DNA of 60,277 nucleotides from a virus. The position numbers and the translations under genes are program-made. Where the stretch lies: the IMG/VR virus record IMGVR_UViG_3300025128_008224, positions 1 through 60,277 of that record. One strand, given 5' to 3'. Shown here piece by piece: positions 26,762-59,683 of this stretch (within the stretch, counting starts at the first letter, position 1; every line of letters starts with the position of its first letter). Below the pieces are notes generated by a model. It ran no database searches, had not been told where the DNA came from, and saw only the letters and a program-made list of their open reading frames with translations.

Positions 26762-26763
26762 GT

Positions 26764-31166: not shown

Positions 31167-31167
31167 C

Positions 31168-32988: not shown

Positions 32989-32990
32989 TT

Positions 32991-34709: not shown

Positions 34710-35583
34710 TTTCTATTTCTCCGATCTCGAAGATATTATACCATGAATCTTTGTTTAGGTTTATGATTTTAATATTTTTCTTCTTGGCGCTTTCGGCAAT
34801 TATACGCAGATCGTTTAAAAGATTTTCGCGGACTCCATCCAACTTGAAACCAAGAGAGGGGACGTGTCTCGATTCATCTGCATATCCTTTATGATAGTCC
34901 AGGTCGGCGCCGGTTACATAAATGGGATTACACCCCATTATAATAGCAAACGAAAGCATGTGGAACAATACTGTGTCACCAGTGCTGTAATGTTCTTCGT
35001 GGTCTGTGTACTTTTGTAGTTCTTCTTGGATTGTTAATCTGTTTTTGGAAGCCCTCTTACAGCAGTTTCCTTGGCGGCCAATGCCATGGCTTAGAATACC
35101 AGAAAACCCTGCGCCATCTTTGTAGCGAGGGGAAGCCCACATGGTCTTGTTATTTCCGTATGCGTCGAAATCAAAGTTCTTATTCTCCATTACATGATTT
35201 CTAAAGGCGGTAACAATATCTTTACAGGCATGCCCATTGAAGTGTCTTTGGTCATATCCATGGTATTCGCACTTTATGTTCTTCTTGATAAATGAATAAT
35301 CTGTGAGATCTACTGAATCGGCAAAAAGAACTGGGACATTGAAGCGGTTGATGTGCTCTTCCATGCTACGCATTGTTCTCTCTGTGTTTGCCAGGATCCA
35401 ATAGTCTGGAGCATTATCGAAGATACCAAGCCAGTCATTGGGAGAAAATCTAAGAAGTTTATTCTCGGCTTGAAGATTTAGTATTTGTTCTTTAACTGGA
35501 TTTAAGCTTGGGCCATGGCAGGCGATGACTGCTGGCTTATCTTTCTCTCTATCAATGAGGTTATCAATCTTGATCTCGGGCAT
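34702..35583 (-). CDS. DUF115/Maf- or GT42-like glycosyltransferase
   Basis: A 293-residue protein with a VIACHGPSLN N-terminal motif (like the GxGPSL nucleotide-sugar loop of DUF115/Maf and GT42 proteins), DYWILANTE, a central Cys/His-rich part, and the C-terminal pair STGDTVLFHMLSFAI then PIYVTGADLDYH. The last motif resembles the corresponding segment of bacterial sialyltransferases. With NeuB and NeuA-like enzymes two genes away, transfer of a nonulosonic acid is a natural guess. Confidence 0.72.
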   Translation of the reverse strand: MPEIKIDNLIDREKDKPAVIACHGPSLNPVKEQILNLQAENKLLRFSPNDWLGIFDNAPDYWILANTERTMRSMEEHINRFNVPVLFADSVDLTDYSFIKKNIKCEYHGYDQRHFNGHACKDIVTAFRNHVMENKNFDFDAYGNNKTMWASPRYKDGAGFSGILSHGIGRQGNCCKRASKNRLTIQEELQKYTDHEEHYSTGDTVLFHMLSFAIIMGCNPIYVTGADLDYHKGYADESRHVPSLGFKLDGVRENLLNDLRIIAESAKKKNIKIINLNKDSWYNIFEIGEIESV

Positions 35584-35584
35584 T

Positions 35585-36550
35585 CTACCACCTGAAGTTA
35601 TACCACTTTTTACAATGCTCTACAATCTTTTGGACCTCTTCATCGAAGTTCTTTTCAGGCTTCCACCCCAAGCTTCTAAGTTTTGAGTCGTCCAAAGAAT
35701 ATCTTACATCCTGGCCTTTTCTGGAATATGTAAAGTCAACGTAATCTTTCCAATCGGACTCAAGCATTGGTCCGTAATAAGATTTGATGATCTTCTCTAC
35801 TGTGTCGCGGTTACTTTGCTCAAAGCCGCCGGCCACATTATAAATCTCGTTGACGTTGCCGGAGTCGATAATGGAAAGAACCGCTTCGGCTGTGTCAGAT
35901 GCATGTAGCCAGTTTCTAATTGGATCACCATTGTCATGCAGGCGAATCTTCTTTCCTCTCTGTAGAAGCTTTACAGAAAGAGGTACCAGCTTCTCGGGAT
36001 ACTGGCCAATACCATAGTTGTTTGTTGGCCGCAGGATAATGTATTCCAGATCATAAGTTCTTGCCCAAGCAAACACCAACATGTCAGCGGCCGCTTTGGC
36101 GGCTGAGTACGGATTGCTGGGCTCTAGAAGGTCTTTCTCGGTGTGTGCCCCTTCTGTAATGTCTCCATATACCTCGTCTGTGCTGAAGTGAAAGAAGATT
36201 GGGCGCTTGGAACAGTTTGCCTGCTTGAATCTAATCAGATCCAGGAGATTCTTTGTGCCAACAATATTGCTGTCGATAAAAGAATCGCTATTGACAATAC
36301 TGTTCCCCACATGAGACTCGGCGGCGGTGTTGATTACATAATCACAATCATACAAGTGATCCAAGTCTTTGATGTCACATTCCTTGAATGCAAAGTTGCG
36401 ATGCTTCTTAAGTTCATCAAGCATTTCCATGTTGGCGGCATATGTGCATTTATCAATACCATACACCTTCCAACCTCTTTTCAAGCACTTCTTGGCCACG
36501 TATGATCCAATGAAGCCCAAACATCCAGTAACATATACAATCTTGTTCAT
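35585..36550 (-). CDS. Nucleotide-sugar 4,6-dehydratase (RfbB/RfbG-like)
   Basis: A 321-residue extended SDR. Seen: YVTGCLGFIGSYVAKK, the DKCTYAANMEML segment characteristic of dTDP/CDP-glucose 4,6-dehydratases, HFSTDEVYGD (the TDE active-site triad part) and YSAAKAAADML (Tyr-x3-Lys). It makes the 4-keto-6-deoxy sugar used by the adjacent E1-type dehydrase. The neighbour suggests CDP-glucose, but the sequence motif is closer to dTDP-glucose dehydratases. The ORF is followed at 36547 by an overlapping stop. Confidence 0.9.
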   Translation of the reverse strand: MNKIVYVTGCLGFIGSYVAKKCLKRGWKVYGIDKCTYAANMEMLDELKKHRNFAFKECDIKDLDHLYDCDYVINTAAESHVGNSIVNSDSFIDSNIVGTKNLLDLIRFKQANCSKRPIFFHFSTDEVYGDITEGAHTEKDLLEPSNPYSAAKAAADMLVFAWARTYDLEYIILRPTNNYGIGQYPEKLVPLSVKLLQRGKKIRLHDNGDPIRNWLHASDTAEAVLSIIDSGNVNEIYNVAGGFEQSNRDTVEKIIKSYYGPMLESDWKDYVDFTYSRKGQDVRYSLDDSKLRSLGWKPEKNFDEEVQKIVEHCKKWYNFRW

Positions 36551-37893
36551 CTAACCTTTTCCTCAAAGAAGACGTCTACAACCTTCTTGATGTAGTCAAG
36601 CTTTTCGTCTGTTATGCCGGCAAAAGTTCCCAAGAAGAAAGAATTGGTGGTTACCAAGTGGGCAACCGGGAATGTTTTATCAAGGCTTCCATATGGGCCA
36701 CGAAGGGCGTGATATCCAGGGTGGTACAGAATGTTTCCAGAAAAGTATGACCGCGTTTGAATCTTGCAGTCTTCCAAGAAGGAAACAATATCCTGTCGGC
36801 TGAACGGCGCGTCTTCTTTGATTGTCAGCAAGAATGCAAACCAATTCGGATCTGACTTATCATTTGCCTTTGGAAGATGGAAGTTTTCGTTGTATGGTTC
36901 GAATATGGCCGAGAGCTTTGCAAAGTTGTCTCGCCTTGCTTGATCAAGCTCAGGGAGCTTTTTGATTTGTTCTAAACCCATGGCAGCCTGAAGCTCTAGG
37001 GGCTTGAGGTTGAATCCGATTTCATCAAAGACATAGCGATGGTCGTATGTGAAATCAGGAAGGTCGGGGAGCCATGCTTGGAATCTGTTTCCACAAGCAG
37101 AGGCAGCCGTAACGTTGCCTGGCCTTCCTGTGTTGCAATAGCATGCACGACCCCAGTCTCTAAAACTAGCAATTGCTTTTCTAACCTTTGGGTCATCTGT
37201 TGCAATGAAACCGCCCTCGCCCAAGGTCATGTGGTGGGCAGGGAAGAAAGAGCAAGTGGAAATGTGCCCAAATGAACCAAGCGGTTTGCCATCGTATTCT
37301 GATCCGAGGCCATCGCAAGTATCCTCAATGAAAATGAGATCATGGTCTTTTACAATTTGCATTACACGATCCATGTCAGGTGGATTACCCAGAACGTGTG
37401 CAAAAACAATTCCTCTGATCGAAGGATCCTTCTTAAGTACAGCCTCAACCTGATCCAAATCCAAGTTTAGATCTGGCAAAGTCACGTCGACGAATACTGG
37501 TTCAAAGCCGTTTTGAATTAGCGGATTGACCGTGGTCGGGAAGCACACGACCGGAGTGATGAACTTCGCTCCAGGCTGGAGGTCATAAAGGTATCGTGAT
37601 TTCAAAGCAGAAATGGCCAAAAGATTAGCCGAGCTACCTGAGTTTGTTAGTGAGCCGAATCTCTTACCCATGAGGTGGGGGAATTCCATCTCAAACTCTC
37701 TTGCCTTCTTTCCGAAGATCAACCACTCATCAAGCAGATTATCAATGGCGGCCACATATTCGTCACCATCGAAGACAGGGCCGGAATAAGCTAGCCAATC
37801 TTCTCCAGCTTTCCAGCTTGAAGCGTCTCTCTTTTCTGTAACGTACTCTCTTACGAGATTCAAAATTTGTTGTTTCTTTTCTTCAATTGACAT
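36547..37893 (-). CDS. E1-type CDP-4-keto-6-deoxyglucose 3-dehydrase (RfbH/AscC-like)
   Basis: A 448-residue DegT-fold enzyme that uses PMP rather than a Schiff-base lysine. The usual PLP lysine is replaced by His in SFFPAHHMTLGEGG (His220/221), as in E1. The cysteines Cys193, Cys251, Cys253 and Cys267 match the known E1 2Fe-2S pattern (C-x57-C-x1-C-x7-C) for the first three exactly; the last spacing is longer (x13). It removes the C3 hydroxyl to give a 3,6-dideoxy-4-ketose. A partner reductase (E3) is not visible nearby and may come from the host. Confidence 0.9.
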   Translation of the reverse strand: MSIEEKKQQILNLVREYVTEKRDASSWKAGEDWLAYSGPVFDGDEYVAAIDNLLDEWLIFGKKAREFEMEFPHLMGKRFGSLTNSGSSANLLAISALKSRYLYDLQPGAKFITPVVCFPTTVNPLIQNGFEPVFVDVTLPDLNLDLDQVEAVLKKDPSIRGIVFAHVLGNPPDMDRVMQIVKDHDLIFIEDTCDGLGSEYDGKPLGSFGHISTCSFFPAHHMTLGEGGFIATDDPKVRKAIASFRDWGRACYCNTGRPGNVTAASACGNRFQAWLPDLPDFTYDHRYVFDEIGFNLKPLELQAAMGLEQIKKLPELDQARRDNFAKLSAIFEPYNENFHLPKANDKSDPNWFAFLLTIKEDAPFSRQDIVSFLEDCKIQTRSYFSGNILYHPGYHALRGPYGSLDKTFPVAHLVTTNSFFLGTFAGITDEKLDYIKKVVDVFFEEKVR

Positions 37894-38737
37894 TTTGTGC
37901 CTCTACGATACTATCATACACTTCTTTTATGCCTTTTTTTAGTCCAATTAATTCTAAATCAAGTGCTTCAAGCTTTTTGCCGCATCCAGTATACGAAGAA
38001 GCTTTTTCCTTATCATTAACGGTTATTTTTATATGGTTGTCACCAACTCTATCGATTGTGTTTGCCACATCCATTAAGCTGTACTTACGACTATAACATA
38101 GATTTAGATCCTTCGGAAGGTTTTTACCTAGGTTTTCAATATAGTGGGTAACAACTTTATACAGATCCTTGACATAAAAGAAGTCCATTTCTCTATCCTG
38201 GTGGATTTCTATTGGTTTTCCGTCCAAAGCCTTAAGAATAGAGGCCTTGATCATTCTATCACTGTCTTCCTTAGCGCCGAAGCAGCCAAAAAGCCTAAAG
38301 TTTATAATGTTTGTATACATTTCCGCGATTTGTTTCGCTATAATACTTTTCGACAAACCATAATAGTCCTTGGGATATCTTTCATGTATTTGCTCCTCTG
38401 TCATGTTTGATATGTCCTGAGTTCTATCAAACTCTGCCCCGGATCCGAAGTTAATCATTAACTTATATTTGCTGCAGTTTTTTCTAAGGTTTTCAAACAT
38501 GGTTATGTTTTTGAACATGTTGATATGAGTATCCGGCTGGTTGCGCCTTCCGCCCTTTACGGCTGTGTGGATAACAACATCGACATCGCGATCATTTAGG
38601 AATGAAGCTACCTGTTCAGGATCCATTACATCCAGATTATCTCTGTTCGTCGCAATTACATTATAACCATCGCTCTCAAAGAGAGGGATCAACTCTCTTC
38701 CTAGAAAACCATTGCATCCAGTGATTAATATATTCAT
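37883..38737 (-). CDS. NAD(P)-dependent sugar epimerase/reductase
   Basis: A 284-residue short-chain dehydrogenase with the cofactor loop NILITGCNGFLGREL at the N-terminus and YYGLSKSI as the catalytic Tyr-x3-Lys. The start is ATG 38737 (MNILITG); the longer frame from 38758 lacks any ribosome-binding site. It could reduce or epimerise the 4-keto product of the dehydrase that follows it in the operon. It overlaps the dehydrase gene by 11 bases and the transketolase C-terminal gene by 4. Confidence 0.83.
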   Translation of the reverse strand: MNILITGCNGFLGRELIPLFESDGYNVIATNRDNLDVMDPEQVASFLNDRDVDVVIHTAVKGGRRNQPDTHINMFKNITMFENLRKNCSKYKLMINFGSGAEFDRTQDISNMTEEQIHERYPKDYYGLSKSIIAKQIAEMYTNIINFRLFGCFGAKEDSDRMIKASILKALDGKPIEIHQDREMDFFYVKDLYKVVTHYIENLGKNLPKDLNLCYSRKYSLMDVANTIDRVGDNHIKITVNDKEKASSYTGCGKKLEALDLELIGLKKGIKEVYDSIVEAQNVN

Positions 38738-39210
38738 CTTTTCAAGTTCAAATAACAAGGAGAGTCACCATATAAAAACTCAGGCAACAAATCCTTTAGC
38801 TCCTCTTCGGTTTCCGGATGATATGTTGTTATGTTATCAAAACAAGACATGATTTTCTTATCATCCTCGGCCCAGTGGGAGAAGCCAAGATATCCATAAT
38901 CTTGGTCTCTTCCGCCACCTACTAACTTAACAGGGATCTTTTCATGGTTCAAGTAATTTCTAATCAACTCAAACGGACGGTAAAGTAAAAACGGAGTAAT
39001 TGAGTAAACCACGGGGATCTTGTTTTCCATCGCTAATCCAACTGACGTTCCAATCATCAACTGTTCAGCAGAGCCAACATTGTGGTAGCGATCCTGATAT
39101 CTTCCTCTTATTTTGTCCCAGAGACCATAGCCTAAGTCGCCGGTGAGCAGATAGATATCCTGGTTTTTAGACATCTCCTCATGCAGAAGTTTAGCGAATG
39201 ACTTTCTCAT
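38734..39210 (-). CDS. Transketolase, C-terminal (pyrimidine-binding) subunit
   Basis: A 158-residue protein corresponding to the pyrimidine domain of a split transketolase. The visible features are IYLLTGDLGYG, the YHNVGSAEQLMIGTSVGLA segment holding the catalytic Glu, and YSITPFLLYRPFELI. The start is ATG 39210 (MRKSFAKLL) behind GGGAG. It is shorter than the usual C-terminal subunit (about 300 residues) and lacks the third transketolase domain. With the N-terminal subunit next door, it should make a functional TPP enzyme. Confidence 0.86.
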   Translation of the reverse strand: MRKSFAKLLHEEMSKNQDIYLLTGDLGYGLWDKIRGRYQDRYHNVGSAEQLMIGTSVGLAMENKIPVVYSITPFLLYRPFELIRNYLNHEKIPVKLVGGGRDQDYGYLGFSHWAEDDKKIMSCFDNITTYHPETEEELKDLLPEFLYGDSPCYLNLKR

Positions 39211-39847
39211 CGAACTCCCGGTATCTTTTGAGGCCTGCTTTTGCCAAGTTGTAATCCTCTTCACTCATTATGTGATAATGTGCGTTCAACCCTCTCAAAA
39301 ACGGAAACTGCTCTACGGAAGTGTATCTCAGATTAATCTTGGGATGAAATGCCTTCAATCTTTTTGTCAAGTACTTTACATCAACTTCATCATAAGCCGC
39401 GTACCCATTTATATTAACATAAACTTTTAGATTTGTCAATTTATTTTCTTCAATAAATCTCAACGCTTCCCAGATTGAACCCTCTGCGCTTTCGCCATCA
39501 CTTATCAGGCAGTAAACATCTCTGTCGGGGTTGGCCAATGCTCTACCGACAGCTACCGTTAATCCCATTCCCAGGCTTCCAGTGGAGCAATAAAGTTTGT
39601 TTTCCTCGTCGCGATGCGGATGGCCGCCGTGCTTTTTAAAGAGTTTTTCTGCGTCTATCCCATGATATTTTTCAACCACAACGTAAAGAGCTAGAGCAGC
39701 GTGGCCTGAAGATAGAATGAATATGTCGTCTTCTTTCATGTTTGAATACATTTCATCTATTATTTCCAACGCTGAAAAGTAGCTTCCCAAGTGGGATAAA
39801 CGGTTGGAGTGCGCTATGTCTAAAACTCTTTCTTTTAAAGATTCCAC
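39191..39847 (-). CDS. Transketolase, N-terminal (TPP-binding) subunit
   Basis: The TPP diphosphate-binding half of a split transketolase. Seen: HLGSYFSALEII, SSGHAALALY, HPHRDEENKLYCSTGSLG, and the TPP motif SDGESAEGSIWEAL followed by the NINGYAAYD part. I prefer GTG 39847, behind GGAGAG, over TTG 39859 (which overlaps that site), giving 218 residues. The gene overlaps the C-terminal subunit by 20 bases. In a sugar cluster such pairs can transfer a two-carbon unit onto a keto sugar; this use is inferred. Confidence 0.86.
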   Translation of the reverse strand: MESLKERVLDIAHSNRLSHLGSYFSALEIIDEMYSNMKEDDIFILSSGHAALALYVVVEKYHGIDAEKLFKKHGGHPHRDEENKLYCSTGSLGMGLTVAVGRALANPDRDVYCLISDGESAEGSIWEALRFIEENKLTNLKVYVNINGYAAYDEVDVKYLTKRLKAFHPKINLRYTSVEQFPFLRGLNAHYHIMSEEDYNLAKAGLKRYREFDEKVIR

Positions 39848-40569
39848 TTTTCTCTCCAATAATCTTGAATCATCTTATCATAGTTTGTGGGTTCTTTTAT
39901 AACATTCCATGTAGCCTGACCTTCGTGCCATCGATAGTAATAGCCAGTCCAGCGATTGCCTGGCCAAATAAACACCTCTTTGTCAGCCAATCTACAATAT
40001 AGGTCGTAGTCTGCGGCGCCTCCGTATTTTTCAGGGTGAGTTACCAGGAGGCCATCGTCGAACAGTTTTCTGTTGAAAACCACGGTGGGACTATTGGCCG
40101 GGCACTTCTCCATTGTTGCTGATTTAAACTCAGCGAGGGAGGAATAAGAGTGAGACATGTCTGCCATGCTTTGTAGGGTGGCGCCAAGGTCGTTAATGTT
40201 TCTAATTGGACTTTGGAACGCAAAGATCTTATCTGGTGCACTCATTATAAACTTTAAACAGTCACTCACATAATCTTTGTCCAAAACATCATCTGCCGCC
40301 AAAGTGAACAAATACTGCCCCGTGGACAACTCAAACCCCTTGCCGCGTGCCTCATCCCAACAGTTTGGGTAAATATTGGGAGCGGAGTCCAGCTTGAGAT
40401 TGGGATGTATCTTTTGTAACTCTTCTAACATGGCGACGGTCGAGTCCGTACTCTCATTATCAACTGCGATTACCTCCACGTCTTCGTGGGTCTGATTTAG
40501 GGCAGACATAACACATTCGTTAATCCATTTTTCCGCGTTATAACAAGGTATGATTATGCTAGCTTTCAA
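39835..40569 (-). CDS. Family 2 glycosyltransferase
   Basis: A 244-residue GT-A fold enzyme. It has SIIIPCYNAEKWINECV, AVDNESTDST and the DxD-like AADDVLD (for nucleotide-sugar/metal binding), then a C-terminal part with an AADYDLYCRL segment. It would add one sugar to the growing glycan. It starts at TTG 40569, behind GGAG, in a 4-base overlap with the previous gene. Donor and acceptor are unknown. Confidence 0.88.
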   Translation of the reverse strand: MKASIIIPCYNAEKWINECVMSALNQTHEDVEVIAVDNESTDSTVAMLEELQKIHPNLKLDSAPNIYPNCWDEARGKGFELSTGQYLFTLAADDVLDKDYVSDCLKFIMSAPDKIFAFQSPIRNINDLGATLQSMADMSHSYSSLAEFKSATMEKCPANSPTVVFNRKLFDDGLLVTHPEKYGGAADYDLYCRLADKEVFIWPGNRWTGYYYRWHEGQATWNVIKEPTNYDKMIQDYWREKWNL

Positions 40570-41480
40570 GACTTCAACTCCAACAATTCTTTTACTCGAT
40601 TAATGTATGTGTGGTTTTCCAATATATTTGTTTTATTTGCTTCTTTAATAGAATCTAGATCAAAGTCCATGTACTTCGTAATCAACTCTGCCATTTCTAT
40701 TGGGTTTTCGGCCATGGGTACTTCTGGGAATTCTTCTACCAAGATGTTTGTTCTATCGCTAACAACAAAACCATTCAATCCTAAAGTCTTGTATGTTCGC
40801 TCATTATGTTCCAAGCCGAGGATTCTCTGATAATTGTCGTGAAGGTTGATAGGCAGTTTTGAATTGAATATCATCTTTGCCTCGTCCTCGATGGAGAGGG
40901 AATCCACCCCTTTGTGAATAAAGATTCCGCATTTTAAGTTCAGCTTCTTGATTTCAGAGAAGTGATCGATCATGATCTTTCTCTTTTCATTGAAGCCGTT
41001 GTTGGCCCAGCTACCAATGTAGCAAATATCAAAAGCATACTTCGAATCTTCAACTGGCTTGTAGCTAAAATGATCGAATGCCATCGACACCCTGTTAACC
41101 TTCTTCCATTTGTTCCAATAGTCTGTCCTGTCGGCATTAATAAAAGCCCACAGATAAACATTGTCCATTTGATTTATTTTCTCGATTACACCATCTGGTT
41201 GTGGCGTGAGCCAGTTTGGATGTGAACCCCATGGTTGTACAAAGTGGTTCGGCGATACAAACATATATGCACGGCGGGCCTTTGACAGAATATCCAAGTG
41301 TTCTTCTTTTTGCACCTCGATATCATAAGTCATCACATCAAACTCTGCACTGGTATCAATATCATCCAGAGTGTCGTAAAACTCCGTCTCATACCCTTCG
41401 TGCCTCCACGCCTCATCATACCCTTTATAGATCCAATACCACGCTCCGTAGATTTTAGAATTCTTAATGTATACCTTCAT
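40566..41480 (-). CDS. CgeB-like/family 1-type glycosyltransferase
   Basis: A 304-residue GT-B-like protein. Seen: an N-terminal Rossmann half (MTYDIEVQKEEH), FDICYIGSW mid-protein, and a C-terminal RTYKTLGLNGFVVSDRT stretch as in CgeB/DUF3880-type transferases. The ATG at 41480 (MKVYIKNSK) is preferred over the frame's upstream start. Acceptor unknown. It sits between two other transferases. Confidence 0.78.
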   Translation of the reverse strand: MKVYIKNSKIYGAWYWIYKGYDEAWRHEGYETEFYDTLDDIDTSAEFDVMTYDIEVQKEEHLDILSKARRAYMFVSPNHFVQPWGSHPNWLTPQPDGVIEKINQMDNVYLWAFINADRTDYWNKWKKVNRVSMAFDHFSYKPVEDSKYAFDICYIGSWANNGFNEKRKIMIDHFSEIKKLNLKCGIFIHKGVDSLSIEDEAKMIFNSKLPINLHDNYQRILGLEHNERTYKTLGLNGFVVSDRTNILVEEFPEVPMAENPIEMAELITKYMDFDLDSIKEANKTNILENHTYINRVKELLELKS

Positions 41481-41481
41481 A

Positions 41482-42330
41482 TCAACTGCCTTGGAAAAAA
41501 TCAAACACCATGTTGGGGATGTCTATTCTCTTCTGTTTCATTACCTTGATGAGGTCGTCGCCCTTCTTCTCGAACCATGGCTCCTGAGAGGCTCCAACCT
41601 TGTCGTTGGTTATAACCTTCATTCCCATCATTCTGGCCTCAACAACCACTCGGGAAAGAGTTTCTGGAGTTTGTGGGAAAAAGACGAATTTATCATTTGC
41701 ACCAAGAAGCTCCAAAAACTTTAAATATGAATCCTCCTGGATTAGATCATAATCCCACTTTTTATAATCGCAGAAACGAACTGCGTCAATTGTATTCTTG
41801 TGGGGAATATTGGATTGCATAACAGAACACTTGTCCTGCTTTGACTTGTTACACATCTCCTGCAACTTTTTCAAGCTTTCGGTTGACCATAGATTGCCGC
41901 CGACACTGTGGATATTTGTTATATCTAAGTTGGCACGAGCGATATTTGCGTGAAACGTGGATTGACACAAGACTGCTTTTGCGTTCTTGTAAAAATCATA
42001 ATTTATAATACGATCTTTTGGTGCTCTATAATTTGGATATTTGGCTGGATCTCTTAAGGGGAGGTATTTATGGTCGTGCTCATAAATAATGTAATTTGCA
42101 TTATCGGCGAGTTGGGCCTTTGTCTCTTCATTCAACTGAACAAAGTTGGCTACAATGAACTTGGCATCCTTGTTTTCAAGGATCATTCTAGGTGTAACGT
42201 GTCTTGAATTGATCTTTGTGACGTCATGGCCAGCAGAATCAGCTATGCGGATAAACTCTTCGTTATTGAGTTCTCCTCCCCCCAGTATACCGTCTTCTAC
42301 AAATAGGTCTGCTATAAATATGATTTTCAT
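41482..42330 (-). CDS. GT-B fold glycosyltransferase
   Basis: A 282-residue protein with the N-terminal GT-B pattern IIFIADLFVEDGILGGGELNNE (first part), a central NAKAVLCQSTFHANIA, and the C-terminal VFFPQTPETLSRVVVEARMMGM segment with the E-x7-E-like nucleotide-sugar site. It is shorter than typical GT4 enzymes (about 350-400). It starts one base after its neighbour's last base and overlaps the next. Donor unknown. Confidence 0.82.
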   Translation of the reverse strand: MKIIFIADLFVEDGILGGGELNNEEFIRIADSAGHDVTKINSRHVTPRMILENKDAKFIVANFVQLNEETKAQLADNANYIIYEHDHKYLPLRDPAKYPNYRAPKDRIINYDFYKNAKAVLCQSTFHANIARANLDITNIHSVGGNLWSTESLKKLQEMCNKSKQDKCSVMQSNIPHKNTIDAVRFCDYKKWDYDLIQEDSYLKFLELLGANDKFVFFPQTPETLSRVVVEARMMGMKVITNDKVGASQEPWFEKKGDDLIKVMKQKRIDIPNMVFDFFQGS

Positions 42331-43613
42331 TATGCATGAACTTGCGGATCCAAGTTTGATAGCCAGTCTTCTATCTCTTGCTCCTCTTCCTTGTATACGG
42401 CGTCTGCGAATTTAGCATACATATCTTCTTCTTTAAAGTTATTCAAGATATACTTTTTAAGCGACACAGCGGTTTCCAAGTACTGATCATGATTTTTATA
42501 GACATCACGCAGGCGCATTTTGTAACTTCCCTGGTCTGGGTAAGCCCACATGGACTCTTGCATCAAAACGCCATCCCAGACTGCTTCCGGCTGAATAGGT
42601 TGGAGGGTGAATTCCACCTTTGCGAAATGAGCCTTCATAACAGTGGTTGTCTTTTTACCCTTGCCCTTCTTTCTCTCCTTGACGGGAGCAAACAAGAAGT
42701 CGCACTGGCCGCTCCAGCCGGCCGTGATCACTGGGAGACCGTTGTATGCCGCTTCGAACATTGGTAGTCCGTAGCCCTCGCCGTGGGACAGCGAAACTAG
42801 AGCCTTGATACGCTTGTCTCTGTAAAGTGATGTCATCTCACCATCTGACATGTCTCCATGGACAAGATAGATCTTGCACTTTCTCTGAGGATAATCCTTT
42901 AACAAATTACCCAACCTTCTCTCTGTGTGCATCCTATCAATGATGGCGTCGCATGCGATGGAAGTCTTCACAATTAACCCGACCTCAACGTCAATGAATT
43001 CTTCGACAAACCAGCGGATTGTATTCTCCAGGTTCTTCCTGGGGCCCCACTGCATTACTGTCAAAAAGTTGAAATCAGTAGAGAGATCCAACTCGATCTT
43101 CTCTGGCTTTGGGTTTCGTACTGGATAATTTACAACCTCAATTGGCGTGGTGCACCGGAAGTTGTCAATCATTTTGCCGGTTTTGTTGTCTTGCGCTTGA
43201 TAAACGGTTTCCTCAAAGATGTTCTTTGCATGGTTCGACACAACTACAATCTGATTCATTAATTTTGACTTCTCAATCCAAGCAGGGGCTACCGCAGTTG
43301 TTTCGATTCCTGCTGTGTATCCGATATTTATCGGAGCCATCGGCTCCCATTCGTTAGGAATAGTAACCTGCAATGAAATATCATATTGGCCGCCGGCTTG
43401 CTGATGTTCAACGGTCTTTGTCACCAATTCATCAATCCAGCGGCGCTCCTCTGTGTCTTCATGGATCCAACTAGATTGACCCCAACCAACCGGGTGGATG
43501 TAAATATCAAACCTATCTTCGTGTGCTCTCAGTGAGCGTAGCGCAAAGCGAGCTTGCTCACCATAACCGGACCTTGAAAGAAGCGGTCCACGAACTAATA
43601 TTCTCTTCTTCAT
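42330..43613 (-). CDS. Family 4-type glycosyltransferase
   Basis: A 427-residue GT-B enzyme. Seen: RILVRGPLLSRSGYGEQARF at the N-terminus, WIDELVTKT, GYTAGIETT and the C-terminal SLSHGEGYGLPMFEAAYNGLPVIT segment (E-x7-E). It resembles transferases I recall from T4-like cyanophages (unverified). The ATG at 43613, behind GGAG, is chosen over the frame's upstream start. It overlaps the next transferase gene by 4 bases. Confidence 0.87.
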   Translation of the reverse strand: MKKRILVRGPLLSRSGYGEQARFALRSLRAHEDRFDIYIHPVGWGQSSWIHEDTEERRWIDELVTKTVEHQQAGGQYDISLQVTIPNEWEPMAPINIGYTAGIETTAVAPAWIEKSKLMNQIVVVSNHAKNIFEETVYQAQDNKTGKMIDNFRCTTPIEVVNYPVRNPKPEKIELDLSTDFNFLTVMQWGPRKNLENTIRWFVEEFIDVEVGLIVKTSIACDAIIDRMHTERRLGNLLKDYPQRKCKIYLVHGDMSDGEMTSLYRDKRIKALVSLSHGEGYGLPMFEAAYNGLPVITAGWSGQCDFLFAPVKERKKGKGKKTTTVMKAHFAKVEFTLQPIQPEAVWDGVLMQESMWAYPDQGSYKMRLRDVYKNHDQYLETAVSLKKYILNNFKEEDMYAKFADAVYKEEEQEIEDWLSNLDPQVHA

Positions 43614-44890
43614 TTTATCTCCGTCAGGGCCCAAGACTTGTAGTTCTTTCTTGTATCCCAGGAACCTTGGTTTTCAATAATATCGGTAAAAATCCTATCC
43701 CACGAATCAACAAACTTGTCCATGGAGTAATTGTTCAGAACATGTTGTCTGCCAAGTTTGCCCATATTCTGTCTCTCTTCCTTCGGAAGGTGGTAAAACT
43801 TTTCCATTGTATCGAGAAATTGTTCCTTTCCAACCCTATCTTCATAAATCCAGGGGATTTCCTGGGAACCAATAATAGCTTTTGAATCCGGATCCAGACC
43901 AAAGCCAAACCAATTCTCACCGTCGGTCACTTGTTCTTGAAGTCCGCCGGTCATATTAACGATAATTGGAGTCTCGCAAGATAGCGATTCGAACGTGGCC
44001 AATCCGAAACCCTCTGCATCAGAAATGTTGATTGTGCAATCCACCATATTGTAGAGCATCGCAATGCTTTCTGGGGGGAGCTTATCCTTGGAAATAACAA
44101 CTTCTCTGTTATCCAAACCCAAGTGGTTGATAACTTGATATAAGTCCTGCCCATGTACATCGTGGGGATCTGTGTGCATAACAAGTGTTGCTTTGTCCCT
44201 ACCAATACGATTTAAGAACTCGTCAAACCAGAAAATCAAAGTACCGCTTTGCTTTCTTCTTGCGTTTCTGTTGTTCCAGAAGAAGATCATCTTTTCATTT
44301 CCATCATTGTCGACTTCAGGGAAGTGATCCTTCTTGAATTTCTCTACGACAGGGTTATCATAGCGTGTGAACATCTCTGTATTGACAGCGTGAGGCAAGT
44401 ATTCCGATTGTACATCGGGGACAACCTCTTTGATAATCCTGTCTGTTACTTTCGAAATACAGGCAATGAAATCATTTGACTGGTACCACGGACGGTTGAA
44501 CGTCGGGGCGGGAAAGTTATCCCAAACATGGTAGTAGACCATTGGAACTAGAGGTCGGATTTCATTTTCCATCTGCCACAACCAGGCCCAGAAGCGGGGG
44601 TCTGTCATAAACCAAAGAATGTCGGGCTTTTCTGTTCGAAGAAGAGAGCGAATCATATCTGGATTACCGTATCCATCAACTGGGTGCATAACCCAATCCT
44701 CTCCCCACTCCTCAGTCTTCACAGGGTTGTAGTCTTGATGTTTGATTGCTCCGCAGAGACAGATGAAGCTGTATTTGCCAGTCTTCAGCATCCCCTCAAT
44801 CATGTATCGTGTTTGAATCCCTACACCAGAAGGGTGTAAGGGGTGATCGCTCAAAACGAGGATCTTAGTCTTTTTATCTTTATCTACCAC
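43610..44890 (-). CDS. Family 4-type glycosyltransferase
   Basis: A 426-residue GT-B enzyme. Seen: ILVLSDHPLHPSGVGIQTRY (N-terminal loop), DNFPAPTFNRPWYQSNDFIA, then the C-terminal ISDAEGFGLATFESLSCETPII (E-x7-E) site. It starts at GTG 44890 behind GAGAGG. It is the first glycan gene in transcription order, overlapping the nuclease gene by 7 bases, so the glycan cluster is fused directly to the replication/recombination genes without a promoter gap. Confidence 0.88.
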   Translation of the reverse strand: MVDKDKKTKILVLSDHPLHPSGVGIQTRYMIEGMLKTGKYSFICLCGAIKHQDYNPVKTEEWGEDWVMHPVDGYGNPDMIRSLLRTEKPDILWFMTDPRFWAWLWQMENEIRPLVPMVYYHVWDNFPAPTFNRPWYQSNDFIACISKVTDRIIKEVVPDVQSEYLPHAVNTEMFTRYDNPVVEKFKKDHFPEVDNDGNEKMIFFWNNRNARRKQSGTLIFWFDEFLNRIGRDKATLVMHTDPHDVHGQDLYQVINHLGLDNREVVISKDKLPPESIAMLYNMVDCTINISDAEGFGLATFESLSCETPIIVNMTGGLQEQVTDGENWFGFGLDPDSKAIIGSQEIPWIYEDRVGKEQFLDTMEKFYHLPKEERQNMGKLGRQHVLNNYSMDKFVDSWDRIFTDIIENQGSWDTRKNYKSWALTEIK

Positions 44891-51075: not shown

Positions 51076-51104
51076 ACTATACATTCATTTTAGCGGATAG
51101 TCAA
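51076..51104 (-). promoter_or_regulatory. Sigma70-type promoter overlapping the end of the tubulin gene
   Basis: Minus-strand TTGACT (51104-51099), 17 bases, TATAGT (51081-51076). It overlaps the tubulin stop codon at 51090-51092. It should start transcription near 51069 and serve the two small proteins and tRNA-Arg. Confidence 0.7.
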
Positions 51105-52244
51105 GAACTTTTTCAACTCTTCTAGTCTTTTCTGAGGAGGTTCGAGACCTCCGACAACTGTGTAAGCTACGAGTTTGTCTTTACCTGAGTCTTCGTAAAT
51201 TCCTCTATGGATGATTGCACCACCTGTCAAGGCAGCGAGGGTATCAAATCCATACTCAATGGAGTCCATGAGGCCGGGGATCTCTTCGTACTGCTTTGTT
51301 CCGCCGACAACGATGCTGGCAGCACCAGTAGCTGTAGTTAGATCAAAGCCACTAGCCAAAAGAGTCTTTCCTAGGTTTCTCTTGAGCGCAGATGAAATTG
51401 AAGTTTCGTCTTCGATGTTCTTTACAGATGTAGCTCCGAAGATCATACACCCCTTTGATTTCATTATAGTATTATAATCGGCTGGATCGAAGGCAGTGTA
51501 GTTTGAGTTCTTTGTCGATAAAAGATTGAAGACGTGAAAGAGGCCGGCGACTGTGCTGTTCAGAGTGGGCCAAAACTGCTTGACAGTAAGCTGTGGATAT
51601 AGCTTTCTGATTTTGTCGTTATCGACGATGATGAGGGGGGCATAATCCCCATTCTCAGCAGCTACACATAATTCTGTGATTCTATTATAGGCATTTTTGG
51701 CGACAACCGGAGATGCGACTTCGCCAGTTGTGGGAAGTGAAGCAACAACGCCCACTCGCTCGCTAGCGTCATCTTTACCAACATAAGTGAAATAGCGCTT
51801 TGCTGTGTCAATTAACGTCTGTACAGAGCCGCCTCCGGTTCCGCCGGCTACTCCAACACAAACAAGGATTCTATCAATGTTCTCTCCAAAGATTTGACGC
51901 ATCTTGTTGAATATTTCAGGATTCTGTGCTTCATATGCTTGTCTAGCTCTCTCTTGATTTTTGCCTGCTCCATCCTCGCCAAAGTGATTTACGAAGAACT
52001 TATGTTCTTCTGGCAATTCAAGTAGAGCCAAATCGGACTTTGCTGTGTTAAATGCAATTGTTTTCTTATATCCCAAGTCGTAGAAGGCCTTTGCAATTCT
52101 ACCTCCGCCCTGGCCTGAACCGATAATGGCATAAGTAAGTGCTCCACCGCTTTCATCCTCAACGGAATCCTTCTTTTCGTTATCAATGGCATCCGGATCG
52201 AAATCCTCAATATCCAAAGTTGGTATGTTTAGGTCAATTGACAT
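51090..52244 (-). CDS. FtsZ/tubulin-superfamily GTPase
   Basis: A 384-residue protein with a complete FtsZ/tubulin GTPase core. The N-terminal nucleotide loop IIGSGQGGGRI is at 40-50, the tubulin signature AGGTGGGS at 133-140, and the T7 catalytic loop FDPADYNTIM at 252-261 keeps both acidic residues, so it should hydrolyse GTP on polymerising. A 35-residue acidic N-terminal tail precedes the core. AGGAG precedes ATG. Phage tubulins such as PhuZ form spindles or segregate DNA, but their T7 and C-terminal features differ; this one looks closer to FtsZ. Filament function is inferred. Confidence 0.92.
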   Translation of the reverse strand: MSIDLNIPTLDIEDFDPDAIDNEKKDSVEDESGGALTYAIIGSGQGGGRIAKAFYDLGYKKTIAFNTAKSDLALLELPEEHKFFVNHFGEDGAGKNQERARQAYEAQNPEIFNKMRQIFGENIDRILVCVGVAGGTGGGSVQTLIDTAKRYFTYVGKDDASERVGVVASLPTTGEVASPVVAKNAYNRITELCVAAENGDYAPLIIVDNDKIRKLYPQLTVKQFWPTLNSTVAGLFHVFNLLSTKNSNYTAFDPADYNTIMKSKGCMIFGATSVKNIEDETSISSALKRNLGKTLLASGFDLTTATGAASIVVGGTKQYEEIPGLMDSIEYGFDTLAALTGGAIIHRGIYEDSGKDKLVAYTVVGGLEPPQKRLEELKKFLTIR

Positions 52245-54592: not shown

Positions 54593-55948
54593 TTAGTTTA
54601 TAAACTGAGCCCATCTCCTGTATGTTTCATTCAGGGCGGGTTCGGTGGGTATTGGAAGCTTTTCAAGCTCTCTTGCCTTTTGTAATTCTTGGTATGCTTT
54701 CTGATGTTCTCGTCCAAACTTATAATCTGTACCATGACTTGGAAGCATTGCAGCCGCTCCGCCCTGGTCGGCAAACTGCACGTCAAGATCGCCATAGAAC
54801 TTATCAAAGTCAAAATCAGGTAGCTCTTCTATGTCATGTACAAACCTTCCGGATCTGGTTTTGATCGGTGCAGGTGTCGGGAGAGGCTCCTCTGGTCTCT
54901 CAAAGCGTGGGGAGGCGATCTCTGGTTCGCTCGGCCTTCGCGTTGCTATCTCAGGCCTGTTGCTGGGCTCAGGCGGAGCTTGTGGTGGCGCCGGCTTTGG
55001 CAACTCTATTTCCGGCTTTGGTGCGGTAGCCACAGGAGAGGGTGTGTCCGTAGTAGGCGGAGTGGGCGCAGGGGGTTTATCTGGTACTTTTGTTTGCAAA
55101 GGTGTTTGAAATTGTTCCGGCTTAATATTGTCCTTGATGGCGCCCAGGGTCAAATCTTGTATTTTTGATCTCATTTTGCCGAGATCTCTGTCGGACTGGT
55201 CGGTATACAGTGACAAAACATATTTGTCGTTGATTACAACAGAATAGTTCAAAGTGCCTTTGTAATAGCCACCCTTACCATACATTGATTTAATAGAATC
55301 TTTACCATATCCTGCTTTTTCCAACTGCTTATTCAAGCGATCTTTCAACCCTTTAGCGCCGGTTCCACCTTGCCTCTTCTGGATATAAGACAAGACTTCA
55401 CTGGCCTCGTTGTGATATTCTGAATCTGGATCATTCTTCATGTTGACAAGAAGCGACATGAACTTGTTATAACCTTGTGGAGTTTGCTGATTGTATCTAC
55501 TTCCCCAGTGCACCCCTCCGATGGAATCTCCTAAGCCAAGCTTATTTAACACTTCTTTTGCCTGGTCTCTGCTAACTCCATATTGCTTGCTGTATTTTTT
55601 GTAATATCCTTGATTTTTGGGGTCTTTTCCTGGAACACTGGACATATCGCTCAAGGCTCTATTAACCCTGTTCGAACTTGAGGAGCCTCCGGCATAGCTT
55701 ATAAGCTTATCCAACTCTTCCGGGGACAGTCGACGAATCTTTTCACCTGTTCTATTGTGAAGGGCGCCTTCTTTTGCTAGTACAAGATTGATGAAAGCCA
55801 GAACCGGCTTGTTCATCGATGCGCCGTACATGGATTTGTTCTGGTCGATGCCAGCGATTGGATCTTTACCAATCTCTCCAATAGAATAGCCATGCTTAAG
55901 CTTGGCTTCGTTTAAAAACTCTTCCCAATTTTCTAATAACAGTTTCAT
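54593..55948 (-). CDS. Tagged internal-type protein with serine beta-lactamase/DD-peptidase-like domain
   Basis: The frame extends to 55966, but I choose ATG 55948, which overlaps the upstream stop (ATGA) and starts the shared leader MKLLLENWEEFLNE. Length 451. After the leader lie three motifs in the order seen in serine penicillin-recognising enzymes: SxxK at Ser44-Lys47 (ASMNK), SxN at 91-93 (in GGSSSSNR) and KxG at 225-227 (YGKGG), the last followed by a NYSVVINDKYVLSLY strand pair. Residues about 290-380 are a Pro-rich linker. The C-terminus has the second shared motif, ALNE then TYRRWAQFIN. The leader and C-terminal motif each end or begin at Leu-x-Glu, a T4-type prohead cleavage consensus. 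Hydrolase activity is inferred from three short motifs. Confidence 0.82.
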   Translation of the reverse strand: MKLLLENWEEFLNEAKLKHGYSIGEIGKDPIAGIDQNKSMYGASMNKPVLAFINLVLAKEGALHNRTGEKIRRLSPEELDKLISYAGGSSSSNRVNRALSDMSSVPGKDPKNQGYYKKYSKQYGVSRDQAKEVLNKLGLGDSIGGVHWGSRYNQQTPQGYNKFMSLLVNMKNDPDSEYHNEASEVLSYIQKRQGGTGAKGLKDRLNKQLEKAGYGKDSIKSMYGKGGYYKGTLNYSVVINDKYVLSLYTDQSDRDLGKMRSKIQDLTLGAIKDNIKPEQFQTPLQTKVPDKPPAPTPPTTDTPSPVATAPKPEIELPKPAPPQAPPEPSNRPEIATRRPSEPEIASPRFERPEEPLPTPAPIKTRSGRFVHDIEELPDFDFDKFYGDLDVQFADQGGAAAMLPSHGTDYKFGREHQKAYQELQKARELEKLPIPTEPALNETYRRWAQFIN

Positions 55949-57621
55949 TTTATAAGTTGAGCCCATCTTTTATACGATTCTTGTAAAGCCAATTCGCCTT
56001 GTTTTTCGATTTCTTCTGGATCTTGCCAATATTTAGCCTCGTGACCTTCCTGTGCTACCAAACCAACATCTATTAGAGCCTTTGATATTGCAGAATATCC
56101 TTTGGTACCGAAACTTTCATCAATACGAAGCATTTCATTGAGAAATACTCTAAGCTCATCTAGATCTTCAATATGGCTATAATCAACAACACCCTTGAAA
56201 TAGGGGCCTCCGCCGCGAACATCGTCAGGAACAGACTCTAGATCATATATATTCATTCCGGTGGGGGCGATTGCGTCTCGAATGATGGCGTTGATTTGTT
56301 TGAGTGTTTCCGGTTCTTCCCATGGCACAGTCCATTCCATGGTTTTTCTATGTCTTGCAAGGATTATGGGCAAATTAATCCAAATATAAGAGTTGAGTTC
56401 GATGTGACTTTCACCAGTTTCGTCGGGAAACTTCAATTCGAATTCCAAGTGTTCTACCTGATCTTGATAGCGCTCCATCATTTCTATGTAAGGTTCTTTG
56501 CCAATTGAAGGGTTTTCTTGTGCATCTTCTTGCGCTACGTCGATTATATACCTTAATGTACTCATGGCCCTTGTTTCGATGGCCTCTACACTTTCTTCAC
56601 GCTGTTGGTCAATTGTATCGTAATCTTCTGGTTCTGAGTTTATTTCAATGTCGGTATTATAATCAGCACCCAACTCTTTTACGGCTGCAGCGAATTCCAT
56701 TACGTCTTCTTTTGAAACGTCTTCACGACTTACCATATGGCCGCCCGTAATATGCTGATACCAAAGGAGGGCACCTTGAGTTACTTTTTGATTGAGAAGG
56801 TTCTGTACTATTGCTTGAGTTGTTTCATCAAAATCCATCGGCTCATCCCAAGCATTCCATGCGCGATTGAATGCTCCACCTGGCTCCATTTCAAGGGCAA
56901 TCTTCTTATATTTGTTATCATTGGAAAGGTTGGCTAGAAACACAAAATAGAACGTTTTGCCTTCTGCAGAGTACTCATCAAAATAGTTTGAAGATTCAGA
57001 TGCTGAGATACACCATTTTGTTCCTTTGCCATAATAACAAGAAGCTTCAGTGGTCTCTGGTCTGATCATAATATAGTCATCGTTTTCGTCGACTATTCTG
57101 GAACCTTCTTTTGCTTTTATTTTCTCTTGTTGTTTTCTGTCCTTCGCTGACTCAACAGATGCCTGCTTTGTAACTGCTGCGTTGACAGTTGAATTTAGTT
57201 CACCAAAATCTTTAATTCTATTAATGTCTCGTTGTTCTGGTTCAACATACTTCTGGAGAAGATGAAATGTTTCCAACTGTCCTGCAATATTGCTGGCGAT
57301 GCCCCAAGGAGATATGAGCTTGTCTATTTTTTCTGGCTCAATCTCTTCATCTTCTGGCCACTGCTTTCCCCAAAAAGGTTCTTTGCCTCTTTTAATGTGA
57401 CCATCAATAGTATTTTTCAAAATCCTAGCTGCGCCCATGAGATATTTTTGGTTTTCAGAAGGATCTCTTTGAACAAGAACATCAAGAAGACTTTCGCCAT
57501 CCAATTCTTCTCTTTTCTTAGCTAATTCAGGGAACTTTCTTTCAGCGTCTTGAATGCGGCCTTCAATGAGAAGTTGAGATTCTGTTAAGTATTTCCGCCA
57601 ATTTTCAAGTATGAGTTTCAT
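55945..57621 (-). CDS. Tagged internal-type protein with GTKWCIS module
   Basis: A 558-residue protein starting with the leader MKLILENWRKYLTE and ending ALQE-SYKRWAQLIK. The middle has SCYYGKGTKWCISASES and YFDEYSAEGKTFYFVFL, a module I have seen in phage proteins but cannot name, then a KKIALEME strand. The rest is helical and charged, with no membrane span or signal. The leader and C-terminal motif match those of the following gene, with which it overlaps by ATGA. Probably co-packaged or co-localised with it. Confidence 0.82.
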   Translation of the reverse strand: MKLILENWRKYLTESQLLIEGRIQDAERKFPELAKKREELDGESLLDVLVQRDPSENQKYLMGAARILKNTIDGHIKRGKEPFWGKQWPEDEEIEPEKIDKLISPWGIASNIAGQLETFHLLQKYVEPEQRDINRIKDFGELNSTVNAAVTKQASVESAKDRKQQEKIKAKEGSRIVDENDDYIMIRPETTEASCYYGKGTKWCISASESSNYFDEYSAEGKTFYFVFLANLSNDNKYKKIALEMEPGGAFNRAWNAWDEPMDFDETTQAIVQNLLNQKVTQGALLWYQHITGGHMVSREDVSKEDVMEFAAAVKELGADYNTDIEINSEPEDYDTIDQQREESVEAIETRAMSTLRYIIDVAQEDAQENPSIGKEPYIEMMERYQDQVEHLEFELKFPDETGESHIELNSYIWINLPIILARHRKTMEWTVPWEEPETLKQINAIIRDAIAPTGMNIYDLESVPDDVRGGGPYFKGVVDYSHIEDLDELRVFLNEMLRIDESFGTKGYSAISKALIDVGLVAQEGHEAKYWQDPEEIEKQGELALQESYKRWAQLIK

Positions 57622-57642: not shown

Positions 57643-58860
57643 CTAGGATTCAAGTGACCAATCTCCCTGAGAGTTTGTGATCATCCAGAACCCAGACCCG
57701 GACCCAACGATGGTGATAAAGTGTCCAATGTCCGAACTTGTTCCAAGAATTAAGTCTTTGTCTACTCTCCCCACACCATTGCTCCCCAGAACTACCGTGC
57801 TTCCATCTTTGTCAAGCAGATTGCCCATGAACTTTTCGCCGGATGCTGGGTTAATTTGGAACCCCTGACCGGGTGTCCCTGCATACCAGAACGTATACGT
57901 TATGCCTGGTGCAGTGGAGGGCAGATTCACAACATGGTTAGATGGAGTAGCATTACCGGACTGGGGGATTAATATACCTGACTGTGATGTTGTAAGGGTT
58001 GCCCCGTTTGAAAGCGCGCTCCCGACGTACTGCTTGTGCCCGAGCATTCCGGTTGCCATGAGGCCTCCAGATGGGGTGATGGTCAGATAACCATTGTCAT
58101 CAACAGCAAAGGTCGCGGCGTCGGATCCGTTGTAGGACAATTTTAATTGGGTTCCGGCATTAAATACCTCCAATTGCGTATCCGGATCGCCAACGCCGAT
58201 TCCAACGTTGCCGTCCTGCTCTATGACCATCCTTATATCACTATTGGTTTTGAATGTGAGGTTGTCGTTAGTATAATTATTGTATGCAATCCACTTTCTT
58301 GTGCCGTTCTCGTAAAGTTCAAGACCGGGGTGGCTGTCCACGTCGCCGTCAATTTTAATTCTGGGGTCATTTCCAACAAGCTTGATATCGCCATCAACAT
58401 GTAGCTCTACATCGGGAGATCCTACGCCGTTGATCCCCACCCTGCCTGTGGATGCGTCTACCTTAAATGCGGGGTTGCCTTCGTTGGAACCGTTACCCTT
58501 AACAATAAAGTCAATATTGTTCGAACCATCGTTAAAAGTAAGCTCATGTGGAGCGGAGTTTTTTTTGTCTAAGTTAATGAATGATAGGTTGCCTGCCTTT
58601 AAAGTTACCGCATTGTCTCCGAACCTCATCCACGTATCGGCATCACCGTTGTGATAGATGTATTGATCGACCCCTATGTCTCCGGCTACGTCGAGAGTAT
58701 AATCTGGGCTCGTGGTGCCAATGCCCACCTTGTTTTGGTCTGCATCAACAAACAAGGTGTTGCTATCTAGATTGACGTCATCATCGCCGCTGCCTAAATC
58801 AATACTCCCGTCCACGTTTAGCGAACCCGTGATGCTAGCATTGCTTCCATATTCAGACAT
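57643..58860 (-). CDS. Tail-fibre-like protein with VGIG repeats
   Basis: A 405-residue protein. Repeats of a beta motif are spread along it: NKVGIGTTSPDYTLDVAGDI, GRVGINGVGSPDVELHVDGD and GNVGIGVGDPDTQLEVF, as in trimeric fibre shafts. The C-terminal part has GSGFWMITNSQGDW. The start is ATG 58860 (MSEYGSN), with GGAG 10 bases upstream; the frame's earlier ATG at 58869 is too close to that site. Its start overlaps the end of the 25-residue leader peptide gene. Confidence 0.82.
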   Translation of the reverse strand: MSEYGSNASITGSLNVDGSIDLGSGDDDVNLDSNTLFVDADQNKVGIGTTSPDYTLDVAGDIGVDQYIYHNGDADTWMRFGDNAVTLKAGNLSFINLDKKNSAPHELTFNDGSNNIDFIVKGNGSNEGNPAFKVDASTGRVGINGVGSPDVELHVDGDIKLVGNDPRIKIDGDVDSHPGLELYENGTRKWIAYNNYTNDNLTFKTNSDIRMVIEQDGNVGIGVGDPDTQLEVFNAGTQLKLSYNGSDAATFAVDDNGYLTITPSGGLMATGMLGHKQYVGSALSNGATLTTSQSGILIPQSGNATPSNHVVNLPSTAPGITYTFWYAGTPGQGFQINPASGEKFMGNLLDKDGSTVVLGSNGVGRVDKDLILGTSSDIGHFITIVGSGSGFWMITNSQGDWSLES

Positions 58861-58930
58861 TATTACCATTCTCCGCGGGGAAAGAATATTCTTTCATATA
58901 CTCTCGCCAATTTTCAAGTAGGAGTTTCAT
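58853..58930 (-). CDS. 25-residue stand-alone leader peptide (MKLLLENWREYMKE...)
   Basis: A short frame whose start overlaps the previous gene's stop (ATGA) and whose stop lies inside the start of the fibre gene. The product is the same 14-residue leader as its neighbours plus YSFPAENGNNV. The first 13 codons are identical in sequence to those of the upstream gene. Either it is made as a free peptide, or a +1 shift near the stop would fuse it to the fibre protein. Translation is not shown. Confidence 0.6.
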   Translation of the reverse strand: MKLLLENWREYMKEYSFPAENGNNV

Positions 58931-58932
58931 AT
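58890..58932 (-). repeat. 43-bp perfect direct repeat, copy 1
   Basis: Identical to 59258-59300 over 43 bases. It covers the ATG, the whole shared leader and two bases upstream. Related, one-mismatch copies of its first 26 coding bases start the gene at 57621. Confidence 0.9.
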
Positions 58933-59298
58933 TAATTCTTGTGCCTTTTCTTCTGCATACTCAAATTCCTCATCGCTGTATGTGCCAAATACCTTTTCTA
59001 CTTCTTCTGGAGATGTTTCACGATAGGTGTTGCTTTCACCACTTATATTGTCAAGCACGTTTTCCAATGGCATCCTGCCGCGGCAGTCAATCGCTTCTTT
59101 TGTTTGAGAATCATAAGCAAAAACATGATGCATGTCTCCTCGTTCATCAACGATGCCATACATGGGAAAATCAGAAATTCCACTAATGGCTTGTGCTAGC
59201 AACGAGCAGTCGCGCCTCATAAAATTAATATATTCGGAGGGATGGTGTTCCTCTTCCTCTTTCATATACTCTCGCCAATTTTCAAGTAGGAGTTTCAT
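58927..59298 (-). CDS. Tagged small protein, unknown function
   Basis: A 123-residue protein starting at ATG 59298 with the leader MKLLLENWREYMKE. The frame stays open upstream to 59442, but that part reads through the tmRNA and is rejected. The body has a MRRDCSLLAQAISG helix, FPMYGIVDERGDMHHVFAY (beta), and an acidic helical end (SPEEVEKVFG, EEFEYAEEKAQELI). The MHHVFAYD strand after GDMH resembles the fold of small phage proteins that bind or process other proteins, but I cannot name it. It follows the tmRNA by 39 bases. Confidence 0.78.
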   Translation of the reverse strand: MKLLLENWREYMKEEEEHHPSEYINFMRRDCSLLAQAISGISDFPMYGIVDERGDMHHVFAYDSQTKEAIDCRGRMPLENVLDNISGESNTYRETSPEEVEKVFGTYSDEEFEYAEEKAQELI

Positions 59299-59337: not shown

Positions 59338-59683
59338 TGGTGGAGGCGTCGGGAGTCGAACCCGAGTCCTAAATGCTTCCAAAAATTCGTCATTCACAAG
59401 GTTAGGTTGTTGTATATTGAAATCTGGCCACAACCAGTCCAAATTCCTGGCTAGTACTTATAGCACTAGGCCCAGCCACCACTCACCTTATTAAGGTAGT
59501 GAGAAACCTAAAAATGCCATTTTGGTTAACAAGGGATGGCTCCCCCGGATTACGCAGCTAGTGCGTATTCAGAAAAAGTGTCAGTATTGGCACTTATCAA
59601 GTTCAGCGTTTTTACAGAGACCGTCGCTGCCCTCTGCCCTGCACGAATAATCTTCGACACCCAGTCGATACCAATTCGCCCCC
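59338..59683 (-). ncRNA. ssrA: tmRNA (SsrA)
   Basis: A 346-base one-piece tmRNA. The 5' end GGGGGCGAATTGGTATCGAC matches the tmRNA consensus and pairs with CGCCTCC at the 3' end; the T-arm is CTCGGG-TTCGACT-CCCGA and CCA is encoded. The tag frame resumes at GCC and reads ANTDTFSEYALAA followed by TAA, with the usual YALAA end. Tagging would send stalled products to ClpXP-type proteases. It is preceded by a structured leader and a strong promoter. Confidence 0.95.

Follow-up and report, generated by a model that had tools for sequence, protein, structure and literature searches.

Organization of the tagged gene array

The window, the whole stretch of 60,277 bases that was analyzed, is the record of a marine phage with baseplate, head-protease, PhoH, and tail-fiber genes. 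Four minus-strand frames near its end share an N-terminal tag (starts at 59298, 58930, 57621, and 55948), and the second of them is a tag-only mini-gene immediately before an untagged fiber gene (Table 1). Searches of the 123-amino-acid protein and the fiber against named phages gave no match, while the 558-amino-acid protein matched 10 phage records weakly, none over more than 45% of its length.

A tmRNA gene with the tag ANTDTFSEYALAA lies directly upstream of the tagged array (59338 to 59683, minus strand). A tag-like motif was also seen at the C terminus of the minus-strand frames at 55945 to 57621 and 54593 to 55966 and at loci L079, L228, L034, and L316; such ends read ...LQESYKRWAQLIK, ...LNETYRRWAQFIN, and ...LFENWRGFLKED, and a loose pattern matched 7 of 2,628 ORF ends. 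Elsewhere in the window, a long minus-strand block (25742 to 44890) holds many sugar genes, the seven scanned matching GDP-mannose dehydratase, NeuB, a cytidylyltransferase, a DegT aminotransferase, a radical SAM protein, part of a transketolase, and a glycosyltransferase. A tubulin/TubZ-like gene is located at 51090 to 52244 (minus strand), and at L028 a sequence that we take to be FtsZ-like follows a 33-amino-acid tag ORF.

Table 1. Features of the array and its junction in the window, with tag-only stubs from other loci
Feature	Position or locus	Strand	Remarks
Tagged 123-aa cargo gene, slot 1	58927..59298	-	Homologues 94% (L005) and 89% (L006) identical
Tag-only mini-gene, 25 aa	58853..58930	-	14-residue tag MKLLLENWREYMKE plus 11 residues, YSFPAENGNNV
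Tag DNA, 42 nt	58889..58930	-	41/42 identical to tag of upstream gene
GGAG, SD-like (consensus match only)	58871..58874	-	Inside mini-gene, 10 nt before fiber ATG
Stop/start overlap ATGTCTGA	58853..58860	-	Mini-gene stop and fiber start; 8 nt
Fiber gene, untagged, starts MSEYGSNASITGS	57643..58860	-	PHROG tail fiber, 1.5e-12; N terminus conserved
Tagged 558-aa gene, downstream of fiber	55945..57621	-	Fiber-then-558-family order also in L129/L142 and L136
Tagged 451-aa gene	54593..55948	-	Shares array tag
11-codon stubs	L094/L098, L118, L241, L242, L244		Next ATG directly after stop
Stub, 18 aa	L079		Overlap ATGTTAA
Stub, 22 aa	L246		20-nt overlap

The mini-gene and its junction with the fiber gene

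The mini-gene ORF (58853 to 58930, minus strand; translation, MKLLLENWREYMKEYSFPAENGNNV) begins with an ATG (58930 to 58928) that overlaps the TGA of the tagged 123-amino-acid gene (58929 to 58927) as ATGA, and its own TGA (58855 to 58853) falls within the fiber start, ATG-TC-TGA (58860 to 58853). An earlier note on this DNA had described a frame consisting of little besides the tag, which starts in the ATGA overlap, stops inside the fiber start, and leaves a leader plus 11 residues; the description was right in its title and in every sequence statement. The tag and its flank form a 43-nt exact repeat between the mini-gene and the gene just upstream, and none of the other 116 tag pairs compared within loci (among the matches listed) is as close. 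With 41 of 42 tag bases identical to those of its neighbor, the mini-gene is beyond chance. Its junction with the fiber gene comes from one contig, and no second case emerged when IMG/VR was scanned for a tag 20 to 50 nt from this fiber start.

As listed, the fiber ORF starts at 58869 (MVIMSEYG), but the start was placed at 58860 because homologues begin MSEYGS or MSRYGS. The N terminus MS-x-YG is kept in five fiber relatives, none of which is fused to the tag. The fiber search matched 96 loci, most of them over only part of the query, of which 80 were kept and eight were inspected upstream. The 11 residues that follow the tag are best read as the fiber gene's 5' leader, translated in the frame of the tag; codons 2 and 3 of the fiber itself (ATG TCT GAA) would supply the stop. 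At 10 nt, the spacing between the GGAG motif and the fiber ATG is on the long side. A hairpin over the fiber start was considered and rejected, as none of three folds across it was clearly above shuffled sequences (z = -0.26, 0.74, and -0.57).

The same slot holds full cargo genes in relatives

The body of the 123-amino-acid gene is identical to its counterparts at 321 of 330 nt (L005) and 308 of 330 nt (L006), with identity reaching the next ATG, and slot 2 opens at the same ATGA in the window and both relatives, the preceding bases being almost alike. Slot 2 encodes a tagged 246-amino-acid protein in L005 and a tagged 238-amino-acid protein with a zeta-toxin/AAA-type kinase match in L006; homology between the window and these full cargo genes ends inside the mini-gene tag. 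Upstream of the fiber gene, L136 has a full tagged 169-amino-acid gene overlapping the fiber by ATGA, and L010 has one of 353 amino acids ending 3 nt before it. As full tagged cargo occupies the same slot or the same fiber-upstream position in these relatives, the mini-gene appears to be a cargo slot cut to its tag, a reading that the earlier note did not contain.

Other fiber genes have different neighbors: an untagged 68-amino-acid gene in L142/L129 and, in L155, a short ORF without a tag close to the end of the contig. The closest fiber relative is L135 (76% identity across the first 89 residues); upstream of its fiber gene lie a terminator-like repeat and an AT-rich leader, and no tag ORF. 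A second N-terminal motif (MKLTKTRLMKIIKEE / MKITKARLKQIIKEE) was seen beside a fiber gene or tag stub in L129 (1294 to 1500) and L324 (7220).

The 20 bases upstream of the 123-amino-acid gene differ up to its ATG among the window, L005, and L006. Since this flank differs as well as slot 2, the unit of exchange appears to extend from one tag start to the next. Identity of the stub tag to the slot-2 tags of the relatives is only 30/42 and 33/42, versus 41/42 to the tag of its neighbor, which points to its homogenization or duplication within the window lineage.

Tag-only stubs recur before untagged genes

Tag loci were collected by a codon-degenerate tag scan and later scans, with copies of other loci dropped before counting (L001, L002, L127 to L134, L137, and L142). 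At least 323 loci with at least 420 unique tag sites were obtained, comprising at least 361 ORFs of 45 amino acids or more, at least 42 that are open at contig ends, and at least 17 that are shorter. Nine rows among the 17 listed short ORFs, representing at least eight distinct sequences (L094 and L098 are the same and were counted once), are stubs that stop at or just past the start of the next ORF. The short ORFs set aside were L238 (a one-base difference), L225 (probably frameshifted), L264 (ambiguous, with a 14-amino-acid tag in front of an SNase gene), L324 and L028 (a gap to the next gene), and L064, L279, and L008 (not taken as tags or without a following ORF).

Among the matches listed, the stop of all eight distinct stubs lies directly before the next ATG or overlaps it by no more than 20 nt, and the following gene is of LamG type in six, an 81-amino-acid gene in one, and the fiber gene in one. 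Relative to the stub, the next gene is in frame 0 in five cases, +1 in two, and +2 in one. Five of these listed stubs measure exactly 36 nt from tag start to next ATG, before two gene families, and five stop at residue 11, without the ..xxE end of full tags. An SD-like motif lies inside seven of the eight listed stubs, L242 having none; in four of the five 11-codon stubs it is formed by CGA-GGN, the Arg-Gly codons of the tag, where L242 has CGA-TGG. The predicted SD region was less unpaired than the whole segment in seven of the eight stubs, an uncontrolled comparison that was set aside. Adjacency alone proves little, as overlapping or abutting genes are ordinary here: the next start lies within -8 to 0 nt in 105 of 267 full tagged genes among the matches listed, a count that also omits L232 to L240 except L238.

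The LamG-type family, in which both members scanned matched PF13385, comprises 12 distinct loci once copies (L235, L236, L238, and L239) and remote members (L247 to L249) are omitted. Six have a stub, one (L036) has a full tagged cargo gene overlapping by ATGA, two (L084 and L229) have another mini-ORF that ends at the LamG start, the tag being lost, and three (L018, L243, and L245) have neither stub, tagged cargo, nor mini-ORF. None of the 12 LamG genes is tagged in frame. Parsimony placed six changes of the stub on the LamG tree, at least four of them forced by well-supported branches; the stub before LamG genes is gained or lost often. Although the LamG proteins are only 46 to 79% identical, the same 24 nt occur in all four 11-codon stubs that precede them, in L094/L098, and in the window. 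A similar leader is retained by LamG genes that have no tag in front of them (AGGAGTATAAATG in L245 and AAGAGGTATAAATG in L084).

The tag is conserved as DNA across unrelated cargo

Of 186 unique tagged ORFs among the matches listed, the 183 that exceed 40 amino acids fell into 99 cargo clusters, whose representatives gave few and varied Pfam matches (NUDIX, GNAT, zeta toxin, M23 peptidase, and protein kinase). Only M1, K2, and E6 are invariant in the tag alignment (A3), with N7 and W8 nearly so. Codon statistics were drawn from the loci of the codon-degenerate scan only, those chosen on exact tag DNA being left out. The leucine codons read CTC-CTA-CTT in 27 of 32 full MKLLLENWR tags versus 0.08 expected from cargo-body usage, and 14 of the 81 cargo clusters from that scan contain the exact 24-mer (both among the matches listed). 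This codon bias, together with the sharing of the 24-mer across clusters, shows that the tag has spread as DNA. Repeated exchange through the tag would be the simplest cause, though the DNA or RNA may also have a function in itself. The 24-nt consensus is matched by six of eight stubs versus 26 of 142 full tags (Fisher's P = 0.0013; among the matches listed). GTDB genomes contained no exact 24-nt tag. In the literature, one short string of the tag peptide gave matches, all under unrelated titles, and no paper on the tag or on tag-only leaders was found in open-licence sources.

Origin and role of the mini-gene

The mini-gene is reasonably likely to be the tag end of a lost or replaced cargo cassette that now serves as a short coupling cistron for the fiber. 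The array would have been rearranged at tag DNA, with the body of a cassette lost or replaced and its 5' tag left, so that an untagged fiber gene ended up directly behind the remaining tag. Ribosomes finishing the 123-amino-acid gene would restart at the ATGA, translate the 25 codons, terminate at ATGTCTGA, and then restart on the fiber ATG, so that the fiber would be made unfused and cotranslated with the cargo set; the stub peptide itself would probably be a by-product. Coupling is suggested by the adjacency of stop and start, the SD-like motif inside the stub, and the recurrence of stubs before LamG genes. Both features expected of a coupled leader, a stop within a few nucleotides of the next start and an SD of the second gene inside the first, are present in the window as the 8-nt overlap and the GGAG at 58871 to 58874. 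The earlier note had offered a coupling leader, a free targeting peptide, and a programmed-frameshift fusion, and the first is the best supported of the three, through adjacency in 8/8 and an SD-like motif in 7/8 of the listed stubs; coupling itself is read from these sequence features. That note had also named two observations as telling against its proposals: a fiber gene in relatives without a leader, which is what L135 has, and a small frame that is not conserved, while tag-only frames do recur before other genes.

The main rival, possible though rather unlikely, is that the stub is a scar of recombination or deletion without a role and that the fiber uses its own ribosome-binding site. 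A young relic of this kind would look much like a coupling leader, the stub tag being so nearly identical to its neighbor's that it is too young for decay. The separate leader of L135, with no tag ORF upstream, and the patchy distribution of stubs on the LamG tree agree with a relic, and a tag joined at the GAGG of an untagged LamG leader would yield 11-codon stubs by short-homology deletion. Against it stand the five listed stubs with exactly 36 nt from tag start to next ATG in front of two gene families, the closer match of stubs than of full tags to the 24-nt consensus, whereas relics should drift, and the mini-ORFs of L229 and L084, which still end at the LamG start without a tag. An unlikely further reading is that 24 to 27 nt of tag mRNA, conserved synonymously across unrelated cargo, may act as a start module and, when a stop follows, as a portable leader cistron, which untagged fiber and LamG genes would keep with a stop before their own start.

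It is improbable that the tag is released as a peptide with a role in the head, such as that of a competitor or core filler. The stub does hold the whole 14-residue tag, and the text available from PMC9026906 states that the first 10 residues of T4 IPIII alone are needed for head incorporation, but five of the eight distinct stubs (matches listed) stop at residue 11, 25 residues would add little beside several tagged proteins, and the stubs do not form a separate conserved peptide family. Fusion of tag and fiber by a programmed +1 frameshift at GTC-TGA is most improbable. The fiber frame is indeed +1 to the tag frame, a +1 shift at GTC would give ...NNV-EYGSN as the earlier note had calculated, and the UGA stands at codon 26 as in Escherichia coli RF2. 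GTC-TGA is nevertheless not the conserved RF2 site, CUU_U, as given in the excerpted text of PMC5009743. The relatives likewise lack a conserved two-frame arrangement: none of the five fiber relatives is fused, no such junction was found in IMG/VR, and no LamG gene among the 12 is tagged in frame. A Val tRNA on GUC would need to re-pair with UCU. As stub frames are 0, +1, and +2, neither frameshifting nor read-through can be their common purpose, and the fusion proposal is left unsupported. It is just as improbable that the fiber is truly tagged in frame and one base was wrongly sequenced or assembled. Such errors do occur, as in L238, where a 32-amino-acid tag ORF differs by one homopolymer base from L237, L239, and L084, but MS-x-YG is the native start in fiber relatives, none of them tagged.

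Relation to known systems

The T4 capsid-targeting sequence (CTS) is the only part conserved among diverse internal proteins (PMC3012670 and PMC9026906, in the portions available). Like IPI, IPII, and IPIII, the array equips variable sets of unrelated proteins with one short, conserved tag at the N terminus, as expected of a T4-type capsid-targeting tag, so the system resembles the CTS, by analogy and with no claim of membership. The tag differs from the CTS in sequence, and in the window the head protease is encoded by a Clp-type gene. Many tags end in L-x-E, which presumably resembles the T4 prohead-protease site. Tag-only genes receive no mention in the accessible parts of the T4 internal-protein literature (PMC3012670, PMC9026906).

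In bicistronic designs, as outlined in the text available from PMC5995908, the first cistron is shorter than 20 amino acids and contains the second SD, and short upstream ORFs may serve only to deliver ribosomes, with small spacing needed (PMC12548453, in extract). Stubs share with both the short first cistron, the inner second SD, and a stop at the next start. Unlike engineered leaders, the stub is natural and derived from a phage protein tag, its coupling being inferred from sequence, and at 25 amino acids the window stub is longer and has no clear SD of its own. The RF2 shift, going by the same excerpt of PMC5009743, resembles the window in that a short first frame terminates at codon 26, a UGA, and the second frame is at +1; unlike RF2, the window has GTC for CUU, the end of its nearest SD-like motif is 15 nt from the stop, and its second frame, the fiber, has its own conserved start.

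In this phage cargo system, the DNA of an address tag appears to work as an exchangeable joint, and remnants consisting of the tag alone turn up repeatedly in front of untagged genes. If only the recombination seam holds, such phages would offer clear breakpoints for cargo swapping. If the tag mRNA is itself an element, a single leader would set translation for both kinds of gene, tagged and untagged, and if coupling is true, a protein-targeting tag would have been reused as a natural bicistronic leader.
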